A stretch of DNA of 44,110 bases from Porphyromonas sp. COT-239 OH1446 (GTDB lineage: Bacteria > Bacteroidota > Bacteroidia > Bacteroidales > Porphyromonadaceae). The notes below the pieces were generated by a model that was given only the letters and a program-made list of their open reading frames with translations, made no database searches and had not been told where the DNA came from. The stretch lies in assembly GCF_000768875.1 (NCBI RefSeq), contig NZ_JRAO01000020.1, positions 1 to 44,110 on the forward strand, read 5' to 3'. Below, one piece after another: positions 3,494 to 43,470 of the stretch; position 1 is the stretch's first letter, and each line of letters starts with the position of its first letter. Both the position numbers and the translations under genes were made by a program.

Positions 3494-4402
3494 ATGGGTA
3501 AATACTATGCTTTGGTCGCAGGCTTGCCCGCCCTCTCGGTAGAGAGTCAGAAGCTCCCGTACACGCAGGAGGAGTTCTACCTCGAGCTGCAGGAGGTGCT
3601 CAACTCTCGGGACAAGCGTCTGCTGGACTGGCTGCGCCTCGAAGAGGAGAATAGGGAGCTCCTCGACCTGCATGAGCAGGAGCTGCTACTCACCCCTCAG
3701 ACTGAGGACGAGGAGGCTGAGCTTCCCCCGACCTCGCTGCCCCTCGTCGCCCTAAGGCACATCGCTCGGGCCGCAGCCTCGGGGGCTCGGGCTGCACGAG
3801 AGCGAGAGATCCCCGCCTATATGCAGGCCTTCGTACACGAGCTCTACTACAAGCCTCTCGACGAGGAGGAGGTTGTTCCTGTGAGCCCCCTCTCTCATGA
3901 GGATCGCCTGGCGCAGCTCTATTATGCCGAGGCTGCGGCCTCGAGCATGTCCTTCCTGACCGACTGGTTTAGGCTCAATCAGACTATTCGCAATGTGATG
4001 GCCGTCTACACCTGCCGCCGACTGGGCTGGCCTGTAGAGCGATTTGTCGTGGGCGAAGGGCCTATTGAGGATCAACTGCGCACCTCTCGGGCCAAGGACT
4101 TCGAGCTCGGCGAGAGCCTCCCCTACATCGGACAGATCATCCAGATCGCCGAGGAGGAAGACATTACTCGCCGTGAGCGGATGATCGACCTCCTGAAGTG
4201 GCGATGGCTCGATGACGAGACCTTCGTCAAGGTATTCGACATGGAGAATGTGCTGAGCTACTATATCCGTTTAGGGATCATAGAGCGTTGGCTCAAGCTC
4301 GATGAGCGGCAGGGGGAGGAGCGTTTCCGCAGCATCGTCCACGGCCTCAAGCGCGAGAGTAATGCTTCGTTGGATGAATTCCGCCGTAGTACGAAGAAGT
4401 AG
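3494..4402 (+). CDS. DUF2764 family protein, V-ATPase operon component
   Basis: 302 residues. It starts MGKYYALVAGLPAL, a hallmark opening of DUF2764 proteins, which are found within V-ATPase operons of Bacteroidota and related to the unnamed gene between atpE and atpA in Chlamydia. The protein is soluble, strongly acidic and predicted all-helical. In operons of the E-C-F-A-B-D type the position after E is held by subunit C, the funnel-shaped adaptor between the rotor ring and central stalk. No recognisable C or F gene occurs here, so this protein may take the C role. That functional idea is inference from position, size and helical content; the family membership is more certain. Confidence 0.8.
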   Translation: MGKYYALVAGLPALSVESQKLPYTQEEFYLELQEVLNSRDKRLLDWLRLEEENRELLDLHEQELLLTPQTEDEEAELPPTSLPLVALRHIARAAASGARAAREREIPAYMQAFVHELYYKPLDEEEVVPVSPLSHEDRLAQLYYAEAAASSMSFLTDWFRLNQTIRNVMAVYTCRRLGWPVERFVVGEGPIEDQLRTSRAKDFELGESLPYIGQIIQIAEEEDITRRERMIDLLKWRWLDDETFVKVFDMENVLSYYIRLGIIERWLKLDERQGEERFRSIVHGLKRESNASLDEFRRSTKK

Positions 4403-4436: not shown

Positions 4437-6191
4437 ATGGCAACAAAAGGTATTGTTAAAGGGATCGTTTCTAACCTCGTAACCATCGAGGTAGACGGCC
4501 CTGTAGCACAAAACGAAATTTGCTACATCACCGTCGGGGGGATGCCCCTGATGAGTGAGGTGATCAAGGTAATCGGAAAGAATGCCTATGCACAGGTCTT
4601 CGAGAGCACCCGTGGGATGCGCATTGGAGACCCCGTTACTTTCGAAGGACACATGCTCGAGGTAACGCTTGGCCCAGGGATGCTGGCCAAGAACTATGAC
4701 GGTCTGCAGAACGACCTAGACAAGATGGAGGGCGTCTTCCTCCAGCGTGGCTCGTACACCTATCCGCTGGATGAGGACAAGCAGTGGGCCTTCAAGCCCC
4801 TGGCCAGCGTAGGCGACCGAGTGTCGGCGGGTAGCTGGCTCGGTGAGGTTGATGAGAACTATCAGCCGCACAAGATCATGGTGCCATTCGTACTCGAAGG
4901 GTACTACACGCTCAAGAGCCTCAAGGGCGAGGGTTCGTATACGGTCAAGGAAGTCATCGCCGTGCTCACGGACGAGAACGGCAGAGATATAGAGGTAACA
5001 ATGGAGCAGAAGTGGCCCGTGAAGAAGGCTATACAGTGCTACCGCGAGAAGCCACGCCCCTTCAAGCTCCTCGAGACCGGTGTGCGGGTAATCGATACCC
5101 TGAACCCTATCGTAGAGGGGGGGACGGGCTTCATCCCTGGTCCCTTCGGTACAGGTAAGACGGTACTCCAGCACGCTATCAGCAAGCAGGCTGAGGCCGA
5201 CATCGTAATCATTGCAGCTTGTGGAGAGCGTGCCAACGAGGTGGTGGAGATCTTCAAAGAGTTCCCCGAGCTGCTCGACCCCCACACGGGCCGCCAGCTG
5301 ATGGAGCGTACGATCATCATCGCCAATACCTCCAACATGCCCGTAGCGGCTCGTGAAGCTTCGGTTTATACGGCCATGACGATCGCCGAGTACTACCGCT
5401 CGATGGGCCTCAAGGTGCTGCTGATGGCGGACTCTACCAGCCGCTGGGCGCAGGCTCTGCGTGAGATGAGCAACCGCCTGGAGGAGCTGCCTGGGCCAGA
5501 TGCCTTCCCCATGGATTTGTCGGCTATTGTAGCGAACTTCTACGCTCGTGCGGGCTTCGTGTATCTGAATAATGGGCAGACGGGTTCGGTTACCTTCATC
5601 GGGACGGTATCGCCCGCAGGGGGAAATCTCAAAGAGCCCGTAACGGAGAATACGAAGAAGGTTGCCCGCTGTTTCTATGCCCTCGAGCAGGAGCGTGCCG
5701 ACCGCAAGAGATACCCTGCTGTGAACCCTATTGACAGCTATTCGAAGTACCTCGAATATCCCGAGTTTCAGGAGTATGTCGGCGAACGTATCGGTACTGG
5801 CTGGGTCGATCAGGTCGGGGAGATGAAGCAACGCCTACAGCAAGGCAAGGAGATCGCCGAGCAGATCAACATCCTCGGCGACGACGGAGTGCCCCTGGAG
5901 TACCACGTAACCTTCTGGAAGGCTGAGCTCATCGACTTCGTGATCCTACAGCAGGATGCCTTCGATAGCATTGACTGCAATTGTCCGATCGAGCGTCAGG
6001 AGTACATGGTGTCGCACGTCATTCGGGTGTGCAATACGGACTTTGCATTCGAGTCCTTTGCCGAGGTGGCAGGTTACTTCAAGGAAATGATCAATGCCTT
6101 CAAGCAAATGAACTATGCCGAGTATGAGAGCGAGGAGTTCTACCAGGCTGAGCGAGAGATGCTCGAGATCGTTAAACAACGTGCTAAATAG
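4437..6191 (+). CDS. ntpA: V-type ATPase catalytic subunit A
   Basis: 584 residues, the normal length for V/A-ATPase A subunits. The Walker A motif GPFGTGKT is at residues 235-242; most relatives read GAFGCGKT, so two positions are substituted but the Lys-Thr pair is intact. The Walker B strand (VLLMADSTSRWAQALRE) and the long non-homologous insert that distinguishes A from F-type beta are present. It hydrolyses or makes ATP in the A3B3 head. The start at 4437 follows an A-rich stretch, as is usual in this phylum. It sits 34 bases after the DUF2764 gene and 8 bases before the B subunit. Confidence 0.95.
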   Translation: MATKGIVKGIVSNLVTIEVDGPVAQNEICYITVGGMPLMSEVIKVIGKNAYAQVFESTRGMRIGDPVTFEGHMLEVTLGPGMLAKNYDGLQNDLDKMEGVFLQRGSYTYPLDEDKQWAFKPLASVGDRVSAGSWLGEVDENYQPHKIMVPFVLEGYYTLKSLKGEGSYTVKEVIAVLTDENGRDIEVTMEQKWPVKKAIQCYREKPRPFKLLETGVRVIDTLNPIVEGGTGFIPGPFGTGKTVLQHAISKQAEADIVIIAACGERANEVVEIFKEFPELLDPHTGRQLMERTIIIANTSNMPVAAREASVYTAMTIAEYYRSMGLKVLLMADSTSRWAQALREMSNRLEELPGPDAFPMDLSAIVANFYARAGFVYLNNGQTGSVTFIGTVSPAGGNLKEPVTENTKKVARCFYALEQERADRKRYPAVNPIDSYSKYLEYPEFQEYVGERIGTGWVDQVGEMKQRLQQGKEIAEQINILGDDGVPLEYHVTFWKAELIDFVILQQDAFDSIDCNCPIERQEYMVSHVIRVCNTDFAFESFAEVAGYFKEMINAFKQMNYAEYESEEFYQAEREMLEIVKQRAK

Positions 6192-34035: not shown

Positions 34036-34219
34036 CTCCTGAGATCCTATTCAGTCCTCGATAGAGCTTCTACTTATGTCTCTAGTGAGGACTAAATAGG
34101 ATCTCAAGTGAAGTCCTACTTATGTCTCTAGTGAGATGTAGATAGGCCCTCGGACGAAGTCCTCTAGACGGTTGATCTGAGACCCTATAACTCCCTCGAT
34201 AGCGAAGCCCCCGAGAGCT
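34036..34219. repeat. 23-bp periodic degenerate intergenic repeat, array C (8 units)
   Basis: Units start at 34036, 34059, 34082, 34105, 34128, 34151, 34174 and 34197. Forward-type units read like GAGATCCTATTCAGTCCT or AAGTCCTACTTATGTCT. The 34082 unit (GAGGACTAAATAGGATCTC) is the same motif inverted, and 34128 is also inverted-like, yet the 23-base phase is unbroken. A CCCCCGAGAG/CTCTCAGGGG hairpin (34208-34240) overlaps the end and may terminate pabC transcription. Confidence 0.65.
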
Positions 34220-34300
34220 CCACTGAGAGGCTCTCAGGGGCGATGGAGCAGTGCCGAAAATAAAAACATCATTGTAGATCTTTTTCTTGAATATAATGTT

Positions 34301-34308
34301 TACCTTTG
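34301..34308 (+). promoter_or_regulatory. Promoter -7 element for the riboswitch-controlled butyrate operon
   Basis: TACCTTTG matches the consensus and sits just upstream of the riboswitch. TTTTTCTTG lies about 12-20 bases further upstream in place of a clean -33 TTTG. Confidence 0.6.
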
Positions 34309-34324
34309 CCTCGTCATCGGTGAT

Positions 34325-34545
34325 CAGTCGGTAGTCAATCGATTGGCTTAAAAGGGAACTTCGGTGTAAGACCGAGACTGTGCCCCCAGCTGTAACTCCA
34401 CTAGACACAATAGTTTCGCATCCTTATGCCACTGCTTAGGCTTACTACAGACAAGCGGGAAGGCGCAAAACTAGGAGAAGTCAGAAGACCTGCCCATGAC
34501 AAGCGATGCCTCCCACTCCGGGGAATAGGGGTGATGAAGCGACCG
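34325..34545 (+). promoter_or_regulatory. Cobalamin (B12) riboswitch upstream of abfD
   Basis: Conserved aptamer elements appear in the correct order on the plus strand: AAAGGGAAC (34351-34359), GGTGTAAGACCGAGACTG with CCCCCAGCTGTAACTC (34383-34398), GCCACTG (34428-34434), GGGAAGGC (34457-34464) and the B12 box AGTCAGAAGACCTGCC (34479-34494). A G-rich hairpin region (CTCCGGGGAATAGGGG, 34516-34531) follows, where Bacteroidota versions form the kissing-loop regulatory hairpin. Edges are approximate. Binding of B12 normally represses the downstream genes. Confidence 0.92.
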
Positions 34546-34642
34546 AAAATAAATTCAGACAAGGCTAAAACTATTTAGGCTCGTACTCGATATGCGTTGG
34601 GTGTACTCTACCCCAAGGCTAGAGGCTGTTATGGAGACTGAT

Positions 34643-34701
34643 GCACAAGGGCTTGGCCCTCTGTCGCTGAGGCTCTAGGGCAGACCCTCGAGGGCTTGTG
34701 C
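34643..34701 (+). other. Branched stem structure in the abfD leader
   Basis: GCACAAG (34643-34649) pairs with CTTGTGC (34695-34701), enclosing GCCCT/AGGGC (34656-34681) and the self-complementary CCCTCGAGGG (34685-34694), a three-way junction. It lies between riboswitch and abfD, with no T-run after it. It could be part of the expression platform or an RNA processing site. A 14-codon frame (34534-34578) also lies in this leader, but I cannot support it as a gene. Confidence 0.4.
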
Positions 34702-34762
34702 GTGCCAGACTTAACTATCGGAATTATTACTTAAACGTTTCACAGATAATCGTTTTACCGCT

Positions 34763-36223
34763 ATGATGACGAGAAAAGAGTACGAAGACAGTCTCAGGAA
34801 GATGAACCTGAACGTCTGGTTTATGGGTGAGAAGATCGAGAATCCCGTAGATCATCCTATTATCCGTCCGTCCATGAACTCTGTAGGTATGACTTACGAG
34901 CTCGCACAGATGCCTGAGTATCAGGAGGTCATGACCGCTGTGTCGAACCTCACGGGCAAGCGCATCAATCGTTTCTGCCACTTGCATCAGAGCACCGAGG
35001 ACCTCAAGAATAAGGTCAAGATGCAGCGACTCCTCGGGCAGAAGACAGCTTCTTGCTTCCAGCGTTGTGTCGGTATGGATGCCTTCAATGCGATTTACTC
35101 CACTACTTACGAGATCGACGAGGCCTGTGGCACAGAGTACCACAAGAGATTTGTCGAGTACTTGAAGTATGTACAGGATAATGACCTCGTGGTCGATGGG
35201 GCAATGACTGACCCCAAGGGAGACCGAGGCTTATCGCCCTCTCAGCAGGAGGACCCGGACCTCTATCTGCATATCGACGAGGTGCGTGAGGACGGGATCA
35301 TCGTCTCTGGAGCCAAGGCCCATCAGACTGGTGCGATCAACTCGCACGAGCATCTCATCATGCCTACGATCGCCATGCGTGAGGAGGATGCAGATTATGC
35401 TGTCTCCTTCGCCTGCCCTAGCGATGCCGAGGGTATCTTGATGATCTATGGCCGTCAGAGCTGCGACACTCGCAAGAGCGAGGAGTACCACGATATCGAT
35501 CCTGGGAATACAGAGTTCGGCGGTCACGAGGCACTGGTCGTTTTTGACCGAGTATTCATCCCCAAGGAGCGTGTGTTCATGTGCCGTGAATACCAGTTCG
35601 CTGGGATGATGGTCGAGCGATTTGCTGGCTACCACCGTCAGAGCTACGGAGGTTGTAAGGTCGGTGTGGGCGACGTCCTGATCGGTGCAGCCGCCCTAGC
35701 CGCAGACTACAATGGCGTGCCCAAGGCTACCCACATCAAGGACAAGATCATCGAGATGACCCACCTCAACGAGACTCTCTATGCCTGTGGTATCGCCTGC
35801 TCGAGCGAGGGTAAACAAATGAAGGCTGGTAACTATATGGTAGACCTCCTCTTGGCTAACGTATGTAAGCAGAACATTACTCGCTTCCCTTACGAGATCG
35901 CTCGTCTAGCCGAGGATATTGCAGGGGGGATCATGGTGACGATGCCCAGTGAGGCAGACCTGCGCCACCCAGAGCTGGGCAAGGTCGTCCGCAAATACCT
36001 CGTTGGGGCTAAGGGCAAGCATGTAGAGAACCGCATGCGCATCCTTCGCTTGATCGAGAATATTACGCTCGGTACAGCAGCCGTGGGCTACCGCACCGAG
36101 AGTATGCACGGAGCTGGATCTCCTCAGGCACAGCGTATCATGATCGCCCGTCAGAGCGACCTCGAGAGCAAGAAGGAGATGGCTCGCAATATTGCCAAGA
36201 TAGACGTCTCACTAGACCATTAG
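34763..36223 (+). CDS. abfD: 4-hydroxybutyryl-CoA dehydratase / vinylacetyl-CoA isomerase
   Basis: 486 residues. AbfD is an FAD and [4Fe-4S] enzyme that dehydrates 4-hydroxybutyryl-CoA to crotonyl-CoA by a ketyl-radical route and is oxygen-sensitive. The four cluster ligands of the Clostridium aminobutyricum enzyme (C99, C103, H292, C299) align exactly one position earlier here as C98, C102 (SCFQRC), H291 (GYHRQSYGG) and C298, so the enzyme looks functional. It heads the operon behind the cobalamin riboswitch, and the NifU-like gene starts 3 bases after it. The reaction does not need B12. Confidence 0.96.
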   Translation: MMTRKEYEDSLRKMNLNVWFMGEKIENPVDHPIIRPSMNSVGMTYELAQMPEYQEVMTAVSNLTGKRINRFCHLHQSTEDLKNKVKMQRLLGQKTASCFQRCVGMDAFNAIYSTTYEIDEACGTEYHKRFVEYLKYVQDNDLVVDGAMTDPKGDRGLSPSQQEDPDLYLHIDEVREDGIIVSGAKAHQTGAINSHEHLIMPTIAMREEDADYAVSFACPSDAEGILMIYGRQSCDTRKSEEYHDIDPGNTEFGGHEALVVFDRVFIPKERVFMCREYQFAGMMVERFAGYHRQSYGGCKVGVGDVLIGAAALAADYNGVPKATHIKDKIIEMTHLNETLYACGIACSSEGKQMKAGNYMVDLLLANVCKQNITRFPYEIARLAEDIAGGIMVTMPSEADLRHPELGKVVRKYLVGAKGKHVENRMRILRLIENITLGTAAVGYRTESMHGAGSPQAQRIMIARQSDLESKKEMARNIAKIDVSLDH

Positions 36224-36226
36224 GCT

Positions 36227-36535
36227 ATGAATGCCTTACCCCTTAATACGGAGAGCGTAAGAGAAGTGCTGAGCGAGAGGGTTCGCCCCCTCTTGCTCCA
36301 GCATGGGGGTGATCTTGAGCTCGTCGAAGTCAAGGACAAGCTCATTCGAGTGCGCTTCTTAGGCTCTTGCAGCTCTTGTCCCTCGCTCAATGACACGATG
36401 GAGCGAGTGGTGCAGAGCATCGTCCGAGAGGCATTTGGCGATGATACCCTGCAGGTGGCCCTGCGCCAGGGCGTGAGCGAAGATCTCCTAGAAGAGGCCC
36501 GAAACATCCTCCGTCAGCGCAAACTCCGACCTTAA
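36227..36535 (+). CDS. NifU C-terminal-domain iron-sulfur protein
   Basis: 102 residues, a stand-alone NifU C-terminal domain (Nfu type). The HGGDLELVEVKDKLIRVRFLGSC core and the cluster-binding CxxC (C48-x2-C51 in GSCSSCPS) are present. Nfu proteins carry [4Fe-4S] clusters to client enzymes. Its place 3 bases after abfD and before abfT suggests a dedicated supplier for the AbfD cluster; that is inference from position. A tail of about 25 residues (VSEDLLEEARNILRQRKLRP) is an added helix. Confidence 0.9.
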   Translation: MNALPLNTESVREVLSERVRPLLLQHGGDLELVEVKDKLIRVRFLGSCSSCPSLNDTMERVVQSIVREAFGDDTLQVALRQGVSEDLLEEARNILRQRKLRP

Positions 36536-36554
36536 ACCAACCAAAACCAACGCT

Positions 36555-37850
36555 ATGAACTGGATCGAAATCTACAAAGAGCGGCAAACAACAGCAGCCG
36601 AAGCCGTCAGACACATCCACAGCGGCGAACGGATTGCCCTGGGGCATGCCGCAGCCGTACCGCAGACACTAGTCAAGGCTCTCGCAGAGCAAAAGGAGGC
36701 TTTCGAGGGTGTTGAGATCTATCACATGCTTTGCCTCGGCCCAGGGGAGTATATGTCGCCTGAGATGGCTGGGCACTTCCGTCATCGTACCAACTTCGTC
36801 GGGGCTAACTCTCGTGTGGCAGTCGAGGAGGCTCGTGCCGACTACTGCCCGATCTACTTTCATGAGGTACCTAAGATGATGCGTGAGGGTCTCCTGCACA
36901 TTGACATTGCCATGATTCAGGTCTCTGAGCCCAATGCCGAGGGTTACTGTAGCTTCGGAATCTCCTGCGACTATACCAAGCCTGCTACCGAGTGCGCTCG
37001 GCTCGTCATTGCCGAGGTCAATAAGCAGATGCCCTTCGTCGGTGGCGACAACCTCATTCACGTCTCTAGATTAGATCACATTGTCCCCTGTGACTACCCC
37101 CTATATACTATTCCCAAAGCCAAGGCAGGAGAAGTGGAGCAGGCCATCGGTCGCCACTGTGCTAGCTTGATCCCTGACGGAGCAACCCTTCAGCTAGGGA
37201 TCGGGGCTATCCCAGATGCTGTCTTGCTCTTCTTGGGCGATAAGAAAGACCTGGGTATCCACACCGAGATGTTTTCCGATGGGGTAGTGGAGCTCGTTCG
37301 CTCAGGAGTGATTACTGGCAAGAGCAAGAGTCTGCATCCTGGTAAGATGGTCTCTACCTTCCTCATGGGGAGCGAGGAGCTCTACCGCTTCGTAGATAAT
37401 AACCCTAACGTGTGGCTCTACCCCGTGGACTATGTCAATAACCCAGCCGTTATTGCCAAGAACGATCGTATGATCAGCATCAACAGCTGTATCGAGGTCG
37501 ATCTGATGGGGCAGGTTGTAGCCGAATCGATGGGAGACAAGCAGTTCAGCGGAGTGGGCGGACAGGTCGACTACGTCCGTGGAGCATCTATGTCTCTTGG
37601 CGGTAAGAGCATCATCGCCATTCCCTCGACAGCCCGAGGAGGCAAGGCCTCTCGCATCGTCCCTCATCTAGCTACAGGAGCAGCCGTTACGACCTCTCGT
37701 AACGAAGTAGACTATATCGTAACGGAGTATGGTGTAGCTCATCTGAAGGGGCGTAGCCTTAGGGAGCGGGCAGAGGCTTTGATTGCCATTGCACATCCTG
37801 ATTTTAGGGCAGAGCTCCAAGCGTTTTATGATCAGAAGTTCAACAAATAG
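36555..37850 (+). CDS. abfT: 4-hydroxybutyrate CoA-transferase
   Basis: 431 residues. It moves CoA from acetyl-CoA (or butyryl-CoA) to 4-hydroxybutyrate. The catalytic glutamate is E238 in GIHTEMFSDG, the same number as in C. aminobutyricum AbfT, and the oxyanion-loop region LQLGIGAIPDAV is intact. Related butyryl-CoA:acetate CoA-transferases are similar in sequence, so it might also release butyrate at the end of the pathway. It lies 19 bases after the NifU-like gene and 9 before 4hbD. Confidence 0.93.
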   Translation: MNWIEIYKERQTTAAEAVRHIHSGERIALGHAAAVPQTLVKALAEQKEAFEGVEIYHMLCLGPGEYMSPEMAGHFRHRTNFVGANSRVAVEEARADYCPIYFHEVPKMMREGLLHIDIAMIQVSEPNAEGYCSFGISCDYTKPATECARLVIAEVNKQMPFVGGDNLIHVSRLDHIVPCDYPLYTIPKAKAGEVEQAIGRHCASLIPDGATLQLGIGAIPDAVLLFLGDKKDLGIHTEMFSDGVVELVRSGVITGKSKSLHPGKMVSTFLMGSEELYRFVDNNPNVWLYPVDYVNNPAVIAKNDRMISINSCIEVDLMGQVVAESMGDKQFSGVGGQVDYVRGASMSLGGKSIIAIPSTARGGKASRIVPHLATGAAVTTSRNEVDYIVTEYGVAHLKGRSLRERAEALIAIAHPDFRAELQAFYDQKFNK

Positions 37851-37859
37851 AATAAAGTG

Positions 37860-38972
37860 ATGCAGCTATTCAAACTGAAAACTACAGTTCACGAGTTTGC
37901 CGACTTTAAGGCTTTCGCCGAAGCCTTTGCCCTCGGCGAGCGGGATCTCGTGATCACCAATGAGTTTCTCTATGATCCATTCATGAAGGCTTGTGGCTTG
38001 CCTTGCCACTTCGTTATGCAAGAGCATTACGGACAGGGAGAACCCTCGGACGAGATGATGAATCAAATCCTGAGCGATCTGAAGGGGGTTAGCTATGACC
38101 GAGTTATTGCCATCGGTGGTGGTACGGTCATCGATATCTCTAAGCTATTCGTCTTGGATGGATTGAGTAATGTGTTGGATGCTTTCGACCGTAAGATCGA
38201 GCTGAAGAAGGCAAAGAAGCTGGTCATTGTACCTACAACCTGTGGTACGGGTAGCGAGGTGACGAATATCTCAATCGCCGAGATCAAGAGCCGACACACG
38301 AAGATGGGCTTGGCCGATGATGCCATTGTGGCCGACGATGCAGTCATCATCCCCGAGCTGCTCCGTGGGCTGCCTTTCCGCTTCTATGCAGCGGCCTCGA
38401 TCGATGCTCTCATTCACGCTGTAGAAGCTTACGTTTCGCCTCGTGCTAATGCCTACTCGCTCATGTTTAGCCAGGAGGCCATGCGCATCATCATCGGTGT
38501 CTTCCGCAAGATTGCAGGCAACCCCGAGGCCAGGCATGAGTATGCCAGTGAGATGCTTACGGCTGCCAATATGGCTGGGATTGCCTTTGGCAATGTAGGC
38601 GTAGGGGCTGTTCACGCCCTGTCGTACCCACTTGGAGGTAATTATCATGTTCCTCATGGAGAAGCGAATTATCAATTCTTCACCGCTGTCTTCAAGCTGT
38701 ATCACCAGAAGAATCCCACTGGCATGATTGTTGCCCTAGAGAAGAAGCTCGCCGAGCTCCTGGAGTGTCAGAGCTCCGAAGTTTACGAGGCTCTCGATGC
38801 TCTGCTAGGTCAGCTCATCGCTCGCAAGCCTCTGCGCGAATATGGTATGAAGCAGGATGAGTGCCGAGGCTTTGCTCAGGCGGTTATCGCCACTCAGCAG
38901 CGTCTCTTGGCCAATAACTATGTCCCCTTCTCCGAGGATGAAATCGCCCAAATCTATACTCAGCTCTACTAA
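37860..38972 (+). CDS. 4hbD: NAD-dependent 4-hydroxybutyrate dehydrogenase
   Basis: 370 residues from ATG 37860 (a GTG lies one codon upstream). Iron-containing alcohol dehydrogenase family; reduces succinate semialdehyde to 4-hydroxybutyrate. The NAD-binding GGGTVIDISK, the metal-binding SIDALIHAVEAYVS (Asp and His ligands), and HALSYPLGGNYHVPHG with two further histidines are all present. Its position between abfT and sucD fixes the substrate better than sequence alone. Confidence 0.93.
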   Translation: MQLFKLKTTVHEFADFKAFAEAFALGERDLVITNEFLYDPFMKACGLPCHFVMQEHYGQGEPSDEMMNQILSDLKGVSYDRVIAIGGGTVIDISKLFVLDGLSNVLDAFDRKIELKKAKKLVIVPTTCGTGSEVTNISIAEIKSRHTKMGLADDAIVADDAVIIPELLRGLPFRFYAAASIDALIHAVEAYVSPRANAYSLMFSQEAMRIIIGVFRKIAGNPEARHEYASEMLTAANMAGIAFGNVGVGAVHALSYPLGGNYHVPHGEANYQFFTAVFKLYHQKNPTGMIVALEKKLAELLECQSSEVYEALDALLGQLIARKPLREYGMKQDECRGFAQAVIATQQRLLANNYVPFSEDEIAQIYTQLY

Positions 38973-39003
38973 GAAACCTAACTAACCAAACCAATAACTA
39001 GTA

Positions 39004-40359
39004 ATGGAAATCAAAGAAATGATTCGTCTGGCTCGTGAAGCTCAACGTGAGTTCCAGGCCAGACACAACCAAGAGTCCGTCGATCGTATCTGTCATGCAG
39101 CAGCTAAAGTAATCTATGATCACGCAGAAGTACTGGCTCGCGAATCGGTTGATGAGACAGGCATGGGTGTCTACGAGGACAAAGTGGCCAAGTGTAAGGG
39201 TAAGTCTAAGGGAGTTTGGTATAATCTCAAGGGTAAGAAGTCTGTCGGTATCATCAATATTGATGACCTTACAGGCATGATCGAGGTGGCTAAGCCCATC
39301 GGTGTTGTAGGGAGCATTACCCCAACAACCAATCCGGTTGTGACCCCAATGAGCAATATCATCTTTGCTCTGAAGACTTGTAATGCTATCATTGTAGCTC
39401 CTCATCCTCGCAGCAAGCGCTGTTCGGCACATGCTGTACGTCTGATCAAGGAGGCTATTGCTCCATTCGGTGTGCCCGATGCAATGATTCAGATCATCGA
39501 AGAGCCCAGCATCGAGAAGACTCAAGAATTGATGAAGTCTGTCGATGTAGTCGTGGCTACGGGTGGTATGGATATGGTGCGCTCGGCATACTCTTCGGGT
39601 AAGCCTTCCTTTGGTGTTGGCGCAGGCAATGTGCAGGTGATTGTAGACCGCAATATTGATTATAATGAGGCCGCCAAGAAGATCATCGCTGGCAGAACTT
39701 TCGACAATGGGATCATTTGCTCGGGCGAACAGAGCGTGATCTATCACCAAGCTGACAAGGAGGAAGTTTTCGCCGCTTTCCGTGCTCATGGGGCTTATTT
39801 CTGCTCTGAGGCTGAGGGCGACCTCATTCGTCAGGCAATCTTTACAGACGGTCATTTAGCTAAGGATATTGTTGGGCAGAGCGTTCAGTTCATTGCGAAG
39901 AAGGCAGGTGTCAATATCCCCGAAGGTACTCGAGTGATCATGGTAGAGGCCCGAGGCATCGGAGCTGAGGATGTGATTTGTAAGGAGAAGATGTGTCCTG
40001 TAATGTGTACGTTGCCCTACGAACACTTCGAGCAGGGGGTAGAGATCGCTCGTGCCAACCTAGCCAATGAAGGCAATGGCCACACGGCTGCTATTCACTC
40101 GAACAATCAGGCACACATCATTCTAGCAGGTTCGGAGCTAACTGTTTCGCGCATCGTGGTCAATGCTCCCAGTGCCACAACTGCTGGTGGACACATCCGC
40201 AATGGCTTGGCCGTAACCAACACCCTAGGCTGTGGTACTTGGGGGAATAACTCCATCTCGGAGAACTTCACCTACAAGCACCTGCTCAACATCTCACGCA
40301 TCGCTCCTCTCTCGGACAAGATCGTAGAGCCTACAGAGGAAGAAATGTGGCGCGTGTAA
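39004..40359 (+). CDS. sucD: Succinate-semialdehyde dehydrogenase (CoA-acylating)
   Basis: 451 residues. It reduces succinyl-CoA to succinate semialdehyde with NAD(P)H, the entry to the butyrate branch. The aldehyde-dehydrogenase thiol is C239 in [11 protein letters not shown]. The cofactor-site SITPTTNP and [12 protein letters not shown] segments match acylating aldehyde dehydrogenases, including the AdhE N-terminal half. It follows 4hbD by 31 bases. Base composition is a little less G+C-rich than the V-ATPase genes, perhaps from high-expression codon choice. Confidence 0.94.
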
Positions 40360-40380
40360 GGTAAGGCCTACTCGGAGGGC

Positions 40381-40465
40381 GTGAGGCCAGTGGCATAGGC
40401 GAAGCTCTAGGACGATCGAGAGAGAATCCCTAATCTATTGACAGAGATGCCAGCCACAGCCTCAC
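40381..40465 (+). other. Long-range stem in the sucD-bcd intergenic region
   Basis: GTGAGGC (40381-40387) and GTGGC (40390-40394) pair with GCCTCAC (40459-40465) and GCCAC (40453-40457), with small internal bulges. No TAnnTTTG promoter and no T-run is seen in this 170-base gap. It may separate or stabilise two halves of the operon transcript. Confidence 0.4.
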
Positions 40466-40529
40466 GGCCATCCTATGTAGGGGACTGACCGCAACTTTGA
40501 ATTAACTATTCAACAACAAATGAAACAAC

Positions 40530-41669
40530 ATGGACTTTAGCAAGACCAAACAGGAAGAACTCTTCCTGCAAATGATCCGTTCCTTTGCAGAAAAGGAGGT
40601 AAAGCCCTTAGCCGCCGAGATCGATGCCGAAGAGCGTTTCCCCATCGAGACGGTACGCAAGATGGCTTCGCTCGGGATGATGGGGATTCCCTTCCCCACC
40701 AAGTACGGCGGAGCAGGTGCCACCAACCAGATCTACTCCATGGCGATCGAGGAGCTCGCACGTGTTTGCGCCACTACAGGCGTAGTGCTCTCGGCTCATA
40801 CATCGCTGTGTTGTGCTCCTATCTACCAGTTCGGGACAGAGGAGCAGAAGATGAAGTATCTGCCCAAGCTCTGCTCGGGCGAATGGATCGGCGCCTTCGG
40901 ATTGACCGAGCCCAACGCAGGAACGGATGCTGCTGCTCAGCAGACTACGGCCGTTCCCGACGGAGATAACTACATCCTAAACGGGAATAAGATCTTCATT
41001 ACCAATGCCGAATACGCCCATGTGTATATCATCTTCGCCATGACGGACAAGAGCCGTGGCACGAAGGGCATTACAGCCTTCATCGTAGAGAAGGATATGC
41101 CCGGCTTCACAGTGGGGAAGAAGGAACTGAAGATGGGTATCCGTGGCTCAGCTACCTGTGAGCTCATCATGGAGGATTGCATTGTACCCAAGGAGAATAT
41201 GCTTGGTCTAGAGGGTGGAGGCTTCAAGGTCGCTATGCAGACGCTCGACGGCGGACGCATCGGGATCGCTGCCCAGGCTCTAGGTATTGCCCAGGGGGCA
41301 CTTGACGAGACGGTCAAGTACACCAAGGAGCGTAAGCAGTTTGGACGGTCGATCGCTCAGTTCCAGAACACTCAGTTCCACCTAGCAGACCTCAAGACGG
41401 AAATCGAGGCCGCACGCCTCCTGGTTCGTTCGGCTGCTTGGAAGAAGGATAACGGCGTCCCCTACTCTATGGATTCGGCTATGGCTAAGCTCTATGCCGC
41501 AGATGTGGCAGTTAAGATGGCTAACAAGGCAGTCCAATTCCACGGTGGCTACGGTTACACCCGAGAGTATCCCATCGAGCGCATGATGCGTGATGCCAAG
41601 ATTACGGAGATCTACGAAGGCACAAGCGAGGTGCAGCGCATCGTTATTGCTTCGCACTTACTTAAATAA
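40530..41669 (+). CDS. bcd: Butyryl-CoA dehydrogenase (short-chain acyl-CoA dehydrogenase)
   Basis: 379 residues, FAD enzyme reducing crotonyl-CoA to butyryl-CoA. The catalytic base is E363 in IYEGTSEVQR, the position typical of short-chain enzymes. IGAFGLTEPNAGTDAA and the FAD-contact QFHGGYGYTREYPIERMMRDAKI are intact. The electron-transfer flavoprotein genes follow directly (9 and 13 base gaps), as in butyrate-producing anaerobes. Bcd-Etf complexes in such organisms can bifurcate electrons between crotonyl-CoA and ferredoxin, which may apply here but is not proven by sequence. Confidence 0.94.
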   Translation: MDFSKTKQEELFLQMIRSFAEKEVKPLAAEIDAEERFPIETVRKMASLGMMGIPFPTKYGGAGATNQIYSMAIEELARVCATTGVVLSAHTSLCCAPIYQFGTEEQKMKYLPKLCSGEWIGAFGLTEPNAGTDAAAQQTTAVPDGDNYILNGNKIFITNAEYAHVYIIFAMTDKSRGTKGITAFIVEKDMPGFTVGKKELKMGIRGSATCELIMEDCIVPKENMLGLEGGGFKVAMQTLDGGRIGIAAQALGIAQGALDETVKYTKERKQFGRSIAQFQNTQFHLADLKTEIEAARLLVRSAAWKKDNGVPYSMDSAMAKLYAADVAVKMANKAVQFHGGYGYTREYPIERMMRDAKITEIYEGTSEVQRIVIASHLLK

Positions 41670-41678
41670 TGTACCGAT

Positions 41679-42464
41679 ATGAAGATAGTAGTTTGCATTA
41701 AGCAAGTCCCCGATACGACAGAGATCAAGATCGATCCCGTGAAGGGAACTCTGATCCGTGACGGCGTCCCCAGCATCATGAATCCTGACGACAAGGGCGG
41801 CTTGGAGCAAGCCTTGCGCTTCAAGGATGAGTTCGGAGCACATGTTACGGTCATCACGATGGGCCCTCCACAGGCCGAGGCTATATTGCGTGAGGCCTTT
41901 GCTATGGGTGTCGATGAAGCAATCCTTTTGAGCGACCGCAAGTTTGGCGGTTCCGACTCTCTCGCCACATCGTACACCCTAGCTGCTGCACTGCGCAACC
42001 TAGAGTTTGACCTCCTGATCACAGGCCGACAGGCTATCGACGGAGATACTGCTCAGGTAGGCCCTCAGATCGCTGAGCATCTAGGTCTGCCCCAGGTAAC
42101 CTACGTAGCAGATGCCAAGAAGATTGGAGAGCGAACTCTCGAGGTGCGCAAGGAGACAGAAACAGGCTACGAAATCCTTGAGGTCGATATGCCCTGTGTG
42201 CTCACTATTTTGGCTTCGGGCTACGAGCCCCGCTACATGAATGTGCGTGGGATCATGGAGACCTTCGACCGTCCTATTACGCTCTGGAGTAGTGCAGACA
42301 TCACAGTCGACGAGCAGCTCATTGGTCTCAAGGGGTCGCCTACTCGTGTCGGCAAGTCCTTCACCAAGGGTGCCAAGGCCAAGGGTGTCCTCTACGAAGA
42401 TCTCACGGCTGAGGAGGCTGCGGACGTCATCTTAGAGAAACTCAAAGAAAAATTCATTATCTAA
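41679..42464 (+). CDS. etfB: Electron transfer flavoprotein beta subunit
   Basis: 261 residues. It starts MKIVVCIKQVPDTTEIKIDP, as EtfB of butyrate-forming anaerobes does. The DLLITGRQAIDGDTAQVGPQIAEHLGLPQVTYV signature block is present. It binds a nucleotide (AMP or FAD in bifurcating types) and NADH, passing electrons to Bcd via EtfA. It lies 9 bases after bcd. Confidence 0.95.
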   Translation: MKIVVCIKQVPDTTEIKIDPVKGTLIRDGVPSIMNPDDKGGLEQALRFKDEFGAHVTVITMGPPQAEAILREAFAMGVDEAILLSDRKFGGSDSLATSYTLAAALRNLEFDLLITGRQAIDGDTAQVGPQIAEHLGLPQVTYVADAKKIGERTLEVRKETETGYEILEVDMPCVLTILASGYEPRYMNVRGIMETFDRPITLWSSADITVDEQLIGLKGSPTRVGKSFTKGAKAKGVLYEDLTAEEAADVILEKLKEKFII

Positions 42465-42477
42465 TCTTAGCTAGCTT

Positions 42478-43470
42478 ATGAATATCCAAGATTATCAAGG
42501 CATATTGGTCTTTGCCGAGCAGCGTGAGGGCGTGATCAGCTCCGTCGCTTTCGAGCTACTCTCCAAGGCTCGTGAGCTGGCCGAAGAGAAAACGATGACC
42601 GTCTCGGCCTTGCTCATGGGGCATGGTATCGCTCACTTGGCCAATGAACTGCATGCCGCAGGTGCAGACCATGTGATTATTGTCGATGATCAGACCCTTT
42701 CGCATTATCTGACCGAACCTTATACCCATGCCTTTCATCAGGTGATCGTGGCCAAGAAGCCCGAGATCGTGATGCTTGGGGCTACGACTATCGGCCGAGA
42801 CCTTGGCCCTCGCCTCTCAGCTAGGCTGATGACAGGGCTTACGGCAGATTGTACACAGCTCGATATGTCTCCCGATGGGCATCTGATGATGACTCGCCCA
42901 GCCTTTGGCGGTAACCTCTGTGCGACCATCCTGTGTAAGGAACATCGTCCACAGATCTCTACCGTTCGTCCTGGGGTGATGCGTCGCACTCCTGCCGATC
43001 CATCTCGCACTGGTACGACGGAGACCTTTGCTGTAGCCTTCTCCAACGAGACGCCTAGAGTGCGTGTCAAGCAGGTTGTCAAGGCGGAGAAGCACCTCGT
43101 GGACATCACCGAGGCGAATATCCTCGTCTCCGGTGGACGTGGTGTGGGCAGTCATGATGGTTTCGACAAGCTCCGAGCACTAGCGGCCTGCATCAAGGCG
43201 GAGGTTTCGTCCTCTCGTGCGATGGTGGATGCTGGGCTCATCGGACACGAACGCCAAGTCGGCCAAACGGGTAAGACAGTTCGCCCCGATGTGTACATTG
43301 CTTGTGGTATCTCGGGTGCGATCCAGCACCTAGCAGGGATGGAGGAGTCCGACTACATCATTGCGATCAATAAGGATAAGTTCGCTCCCATCTTCGGAGT
43401 GGCCGACCTCGGCCTCGTGGGCGACCTCCATCAGATCATCCCCGCTCTAACGAAAAAGCTCAGTCGCTAG
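42478..43470 (+). CDS. etfA: Electron transfer flavoprotein alpha subunit
   Basis: 330 residues. The C-terminal FAD domain shows SGGRGVGSHDGFDKLRALA, SRAMVDAGLIGHERQVGQTG, and the signature RPDVYIACGISGAIQHLAGM followed by SDYIIAINKD. The N-terminal domain pairs with EtfB. It is the last gene of the butyrate cluster, closed by the terminator at 43501. Confidence 0.96.
   Translation: MNIQDYQGILVFAEQREGVISSVAFELLSKARELAEEKTMTVSALLMGHGIAHLANELHAAGADHVIIVDDQTLSHYLTEPYTHAFHQVIVAKKPEIVMLGATTIGRDLGPRLSARLMTGLTADCTQLDMSPDGHLMMTRPAFGGNLCATILCKEHRPQISTVRPGVMRRTPADPSRTGTTETFAVAFSNETPRVRVKQVVKAEKHLVDITEANILVSGGRGVGSHDGFDKLRALAACIKAEVSSSRAMVDAGLIGHERQVGQTGKTVRPDVYIACGISGAIQHLAGMEESDYIIAINKDKFAPIFGVADLGLVGDLHQIIPALTKKLSR

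Follow-up and report, generated by a model that had tools for sequence, protein, structure and literature searches.

The subject of this work is a cobalamin (vitamin B12) riboswitch located upstream of abfD and a set of fermentation genes in Porphyromonas sp. COT-239 OH1446, within a stretch of 44,110 nucleotides (nt) of contig NZ_JRAO01000020.1, which will be referred to as the window. An earlier note, made from the sequence alone, had described here a well-formed cobalamin riboswitch with an intact B12 box, followed by abfD, a NifU-like gene, abfT, 4hbD, sucD, bcd, etfB, and etfA, all on the same strand. This description is borne out by our analyses. The Rfam Cobalamin model (RF00174) matched positions 34301-34511(+) along its entire length (model positions 1-189 of 189) with a score of 82.2 bits (cut-off 31.5; E 7e-19), the B12 box was found intact at 34478-34494, and the open reading frames (ORFs) and their Pfam domains agree with the gene order. 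When the region 34200-34800 was rescanned at E values up to 10, no further match was observed near the cut-off of any family. The features of the locus are as follows:

34301..34308, +: match TACCTTTG to TAnnTTTG, which we take to be the consensus of the Bacteroidota -7 promoter motif; it overlaps the beginning of the Rfam match
34301..34511, +: cobalamin riboswitch aptamer (full-length RF00174 match; covariation of its pairs)
34478..34494, +: B12 box region AAGTCAGAAGACCTGCC, intact, in conserved columns of the aptamer alignment
34514..34533, +: P13-like hairpin directly 3' of the aptamer (6-bp stem, 8-nt loop; predicted in both the minimum free energy and the centroid structures)
34534..34762, +: rest of the leader before abfD (no canonical intrinsic terminator; shuffled sequences fold as well)
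34763..36223, +: abfD, 4-hydroxybutyryl-CoA dehydratase / vinylacetyl-CoA isomerase (Pfam HpaB_N/HpaB; PDB 1u8v)
36227..36535, +: NifU-domain protein of 102 aa (PF01106)
36555..37850, +: abfT, acyl-CoA/4-hydroxybutyrate CoA-transferase (PF02550 and PF13336; substrate suggested by context)
37857..38972, +: 4hbD, iron-type alcohol dehydrogenase, 4-hydroxybutyrate dehydrogenase (PF00465/PF25137; substrate suggested by context)
39004..40359, +: sucD, acylating (CoA-dependent) succinate-semialdehyde dehydrogenase (PF00171)
40530..41669, +: bcd, butyryl-CoA dehydrogenase (Acyl-CoA_dh domains); possible operon member past a 170-nt gap
41679..42464, +: etfB (PF01012)
42478..43470, +: etfA (PF01012 and PF00766)

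The Pfam domains of all eight proteins fit the names assigned to them, and none of the eight passed an NCBIfam equivalog cut-off. The best solved structure for AbfD was 1u8v, annotated as 'Gamma-aminobutyrate metabolism dehydratase/isomerase', and on the strength of this match (816 bits) we reject the best NCBIfam name of the protein, the oxygenase HpaB (171 bits vs. a cut-off of 480). The best NCBIfam relatives of SucD were CoA-acylating aldehyde dehydrogenases, with scores below the cut-off. AbfD of the window shares 97% identity with its counterpart in Porphyromonas sp. COT-290 OH3588. A dehydratase, a CoA-transferase, a 4-hydroxybutyrate dehydrogenase, and an acylating semialdehyde dehydrogenase are all present together, their substrate specificities being assigned from domains and gene order. 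The genes bcd-etfBA follow sucD after 170 nt, their linkage to the operon is variable among relatives, and it is possible that they are part of the riboswitch-controlled unit. The enzymes of the operon had been stated to be independent of B12, which agrees with the lack of a match to B12-binding Pfam families among the eight proteins. The succinyl-CoA-to-butyrate (4-hydroxybutyrate) route and the route via methylmalonyl-CoA mutase have both been described, and succinyl-CoA is the substrate common to the two branches (PMC9403272).

Conservation of the riboswitch upstream of abfD

The earlier note had suggested that the riboswitch be looked for upstream of abfD in other Porphyromonas genomes, and it was found both within the family and beyond it. 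Among 38 genomes of the family, 26 contained abfD, and in 17 of these the aptamer was located upstream of this gene on the same strand; seven lacked it and two were cut by contig ends (G033, G021). The distance between the aptamer and abfD was 244-326 nt in 15 of these genomes (251 nt in the window), 578 nt in G005, and 745 nt in G017. Since the first riboswitch search scored at most 50 candidates per genome, which were joined to abfD by position, the abfD leaders of the seven negative genomes (G009, G027, G034, G028, G003, G015, and G007) were also scanned directly at permissive settings; no aptamer was detected in them, which rules out that it had merely been overlooked.

In a scan of named genomes, 80 of 131 confirmed abfD relatives were kept. 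Outside the family of 38 genomes, the aptamer was present in 13 of the 21 resolved loci and absent from eight, with L067 being cut. The distances were 212-357 nt except for L048 (818 nt), where a MarC-like ORF (named by eye) is found between the riboswitch and abfD, at 5183-6000. One of the 13 positive loci is from Sanguibacteroides (L060), which NCBI places in the Porphyromonadaceae. A scan of the 80 loci for the B12-box motif, which is not a covariance search, was positive for 23 of them and for none of the 40 loci L076-L115, mostly from Bacillota. In a sample of 295 genomes from across the order, abfD was detected in only eight, and the pathway itself is therefore rare. Five of these eight are from outside the family: G137 has an aptamer 249 nt upstream of abfD (on the contig of L061), G129 has 10 aptamers that are all away from abfD, G128 and G229 have none at all, and G117 is cut by an edge.

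The gene order was compared for L036-L075, L089, and L116-L118, leaving out the downstream genes of G001, G005, G008, and G025. Wherever the contig was long enough, abfD was first and was followed by abfT, 4hbD, and sucD, while the presence of NifU and bcd-etfBA was variable. In a tree based upon AbfD sequences, the distribution of the aptamer required nine changes, at least six of them on well-supported branches, indicating that it has been gained or lost several times. The window spans contig C13 of a 1.96 Mb genome from end to end. Only four cobalamin riboswitch matches are present in this genome, and the pairing of aptamer and abfD is seen again in 16 further genomes of the family and 13 loci outside; hence, the adjacency is not due to chance.

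An alignment was made of 25 of the 30 abfD-linked aptamers, with near-duplicates left out. The core columns of the aptamer were invariant over these 25 copies, and changes on both sides were observed in 11 of the 23 predicted pairs. A hairpin-like stretch also follows many other cobalamin aptamers of Porphyromonas (by eye), and the predicted hairpin at 34514..34533 is probably the start of the expression platform. A terminator-like hairpin better than all 30 shuffles was observed in seven of the 30 aptamer-bearing abfD leaders, and the regulatory step may differ between lineages. Separately, a nearly identical hairpin element of ~36 nt occurs 3' of the aptamer in the abfD leaders L022, L025, L026, L031, L032, and L035; it persists in two genomes whose aptamer is gone and may serve a function in its own right.

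Cobalamin use and the association with methylmalonyl-CoA mutase

The first of the four riboswitches in this genome precedes genes for periplasmic-binding, FecCD, and ABC proteins together with cobN and an AAA gene, the second precedes a TonB receptor, and the third the abfD operon. The fourth (L008 12253-12468(-); C37:62252-62467) is followed, ~340 nt on, by a same-strand ORF for an alpha-glucan phosphorylase (871 aa), which is closely preceded by its own TAnnTTTG motif; this riboswitch is either an orphan or has an odd target. The earlier note had stated that succinyl-CoA in Porphyromonas can also enter a B12-dependent mutase route, and the mutase subunits mutAB are indeed intact on contig C23 of the same genome. 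PF02310 is matched in this genome by the large subunit, MutB, alone. A QueG-like protein scores above its cut-off (QueG is usually B12-dependent), and the cut-off of the class II ribonucleotide reductase model was not reached (129.6 bits vs. 399.95). On this basis, B12 appears to be used mainly, but not solely, by the mutase. One carboxyltransferase-family gene is also present.

To place these riboswitches in context, 18 other riboswitch regions were taken from G006, G012, G014, G018, and G023 and their first sizeable ORF was inspected. In seven of them, it appeared to be a gene for uptake or cobalt insertion (TonB receptor, periplasmic binding protein, or CbiK), and in two (G006 and G023) it appeared to be nrdD, encoding the class III ribonucleotide reductase, a classical B12-independent alternative. 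These nrdD genes (L125 1469-3865(-) in G006 and L136 411-2810(+) in G023) have the riboswitch ~90 nt upstream.

The mutase domain PF01642 was detected in 34 of the 38 family genomes and in 18 of the 24 genomes behind the non-family loci. When aptamer and mutase were compared across the 44 rows in which both traits were resolved, 29 had both, one had only the aptamer (L062, a metagenome-assembled genome, MAG), nine had only the mutase, and five had neither; this association has a Fisher p of 0.009 with phylogeny ignored. Left out of this table were G033, L067, and L075, whose abfD lies at the edge of a contig; G021, where a contig ends within abfD; G007, whose abfD is split in two and contains stops (both mutase and aptamer are absent); L089 (upstream region by motif only); G117 (edge); G129; and five Bacillota rows. 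L049 was scored as mutase-bearing on one fragment, L045, L050, and L051 include fragments, and the non-family rows without the mutase are affected by MAG incompleteness.

The most telling case is that of Porphyromonas circumdentaria. In this species (G003) and its close relative G007 (genome 88% complete and 6% contaminated), neither the mutase nor any cobalamin riboswitch was found. In their abfD leaders, the promoter region has been kept, as has the hairpin that normally follows the aptamer (36-37 nt in common with G010 and G022 at 97%), but the aptamer itself cannot be recognised between the two. The two pieces of abfD with stops in G007 (L035 2685-4141) reflect either decay or an assembly error. 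G026 and G031 lack both the mutase and abfD, yet have four cobalamin riboswitches each, and thus loss of the mutase does not always remove B12 sensing.

Proposed control of the butyrate branch and alternative explanations

We propose that the abfD operon has the cobalamin riboswitch as its 5' leader and that B12 represses the succinyl-CoA-to-butyrate branch as against the propionate route, and we regard this reading as fairly probable. The riboswitch, probably one sensing adenosylcobalamin (AdoCbl), would bind this coenzyme of the mutase in the nascent leader. With plentiful B12, the ligand-bound leader would lower expression of the operon and succinyl-CoA would pass via the B12-dependent mutase toward propionate. 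When B12 is scarce, the leader would permit expression, and succinyl-CoA would enter the 4-hydroxybutyrate route to crotonyl-CoA and butyryl-CoA, a branch that would also use up reducing power. The form of the ligand, the direction of the response, the regulatory step, and the metabolic effect are all parts that we infer, the direction by analogy: repression is suggested by the way in which cobalamin riboswitches generally behave (PMC11575231) and by the logic of B12-independent alternatives (PMC3766115). The nrdD riboswitches of G006 and G023 show this logic in the same riboswitch family and thus count in favour of the proposal.

The proposal requires a transcript that extends through the aptamer into abfD. 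The TAnnTTTG motif at 34301 is the only + strand copy between 29249 and the contig end. This strand of the window contains 12 such motifs where base composition predicts 7.5, and one match by itself is therefore of little weight. Among the 30 aptamer-bearing abfD leaders, the motif was located at -37 to +1 of the aptamer start in 21 (16 of 17 in the family and five of 13 outside), whereas the spacers between aptamer and abfD, 9251 nt in all, contained seven, with 23 of the 30 spacers having none. This clustering at the aptamer start supports a single transcript that covers both the aptamer and abfD, most strongly so in the family. The earlier note had stated that its reading would fail if a separate B12-related gene were transcribed from the leader and a different promoter drove abfD; no + strand ORF of at least 100 aa was found between the aptamer and abfD, and the sole + strand motif of the region is the one at the aptamer.

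An alternative explanation, which we consider unlikely, is that the riboswitch yields a short separate RNA, either a small RNA (sRNA) like EutX/Rli55 or an aborted leader, and that abfD is transcribed from its own downstream promoter. The length of the spacer (251 nt here and up to 745 in G017 and 818 in L048), a sigma-70-like match at 34739-34767 that overlaps the abfD start, the TAnnTTTG motifs inside seven of the 30 spacers, and the known action in trans of an AdoCbl riboswitch through an sRNA (PMC5821096) are in accordance with this possibility. However, no TAnnTTTG motif is present in the spacer of the window or onward on the + strand to the contig end, most other spacers likewise lack it, and the aptamer has been kept upstream of abfD in distant lineages, which would be needless for an sRNA acting in trans.

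Several other observations weigh against the proposal, or against a strict form of it. A canonical intrinsic terminator was sought in the window leader and none was found, and the RNA fold of 34512-34800 was no more stable than those of shuffled sequences (z -0.24). In a phylogeny-aware analysis, the aptamer-mutase association did not reach significance, the independent pairs being too few; these pairs never run opposite to the association. The nine rows with a mutase and no aptamer are at variance with a strict on/off switch, as is Porphyromonas loveana (G009), which has kept the mutase and has an abfD leader with an apparently decaying aptamer. The QueG-like protein is a second likely B12 user beside the mutase. 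In nine of the 18 other riboswitch regions, the first sizeable ORF has no obvious link to B12, and adjacency alone is therefore weak evidence of control. Lastly, in Porphyromonas gingivalis abfD (PG0692) is among the highly expressed genes and its expression in the periodontal pocket and in culture was not significantly different (PMC5807917), which implies that any repression there is incomplete or that B12 was limiting in both settings.

Some of these results would also fit control of the operon for another reason, such as a general control of redox state or growth by B12 status, or the sparing of iron-sulfur enzymes; the tie to the mutase would then only reflect that some genomes have lost the use of B12 as a whole. 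Besides the mutase-bearing rows without an aptamer, it is consistent with this explanation that the two family genomes with abfD and no mutase have no cobalamin riboswitch whatever. We regard it as quite improbable, since G026 and G031 retain their riboswitches without a mutase and both branches draw on succinyl-CoA (PMC9403272). That the aptamer is a non-functional relic or a drifter with no target, as the regions without an obvious B12 target, the C37 copy ahead of alpha-glucan phosphorylase, and the decayed aptamer of P. loveana might suggest, is very improbable in view of the invariant core columns and covarying pairs over 25 copies and a window copy that scores far above the cut-off.

The proposed control of the butyrate branch may also be extended to the succinate-to-butyrate fermenters of the Bacteroidales, in which an AdoCbl riboswitch would serve as a switch between the propionate and butyrate branches of carbon flow, being widespread (30 of 44 rows) and tending to be missing from genomes that lack the mutase. 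To this more general statement we give an even chance.

Comparison with known systems and significance

Among the genes for B12-independent isozymes that are preceded by cobalamin riboswitches are metE and nrdDG. Such riboswitches have been described as a class (PMC3766115), and as in the abfD case they place a B12-sensing RNA in front of genes whose products work without the vitamin. In this class one enzyme substitutes for one enzyme, whereas the abfD riboswitch precedes a whole fermentation branch leading to a different end product. The earlier note had called control of this kind unusual, which is a fair description, but precedents exist for both the placement of the riboswitch and the type of pathway. 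In Tannerella, also an oral member of the Bacteroidales, the same riboswitch family has been noted ahead of 4-hydroxybutyryl-CoA dehydratase; this mention consists, in the available text, of one phrase under the label 'adenosylcobalamin biosynthesis', with no operon, conservation, link to the mutase, or function given (PMC7160235). The eut system resembles the abfD case in that an AdoCbl riboswitch acts on a carbon-source pathway and not on B12 supply. However, EutX/Rli55 is an sRNA that acts by sequestering EutV, and the pathway that B12 switches on there is itself B12-dependent (PMC5821096), whereas at abfD a B12-independent pathway would be expected to be turned down, and in cis.

Xylanibacter ruminicola likewise has the succinate/mutase route within the Bacteroidales, and B12 decides whether propionate is formed. 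In this species none of four riboswitches is near the propionate genes and control is apparently post-translational (PMC11575231), whereas in Porphyromonas it is the competing branch that bears the riboswitch. For P. gingivalis, a coenzyme B12 riboswitch has been reported upstream of a BtuB-like receptor (PMC3764172). In the open-licence literature that was searched, which was available in part, no paper was found that ties a riboswitch to the choice between butyrate and propionate, and no comparison of gene expression in these organisms with and without B12 was found either.

If the proposal is correct, B12 obtained from the host or from neighbouring organisms would determine which of the short-chain fatty acids is given off by oral and gut Bacteroidales; butyrate and propionate differ in their action on host tissue. 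It would also widen the control exerted by cobalamin riboswitches from uptake, synthesis, and isozymes to an entire fermentation branch. The proposal predicts that limitation of B12 should raise the butyrate branch in species that have both the mutase and the aptamer, and that no such rise should occur in species such as P. loveana or Porphyromonas canoris, in which the mutase is present and an aptamer cannot be recognised.

Two further arrangements were observed in relatives. In G012 (L015), two riboswitches (1857-2060 and 3710-3924(-)) are present in tandem upstream of abfD, ~1.65 kb apart. In G006, a riboswitch is located ahead of an Asp-Al_Ex/TrkA_C permease (L124 1810-3519(-)).

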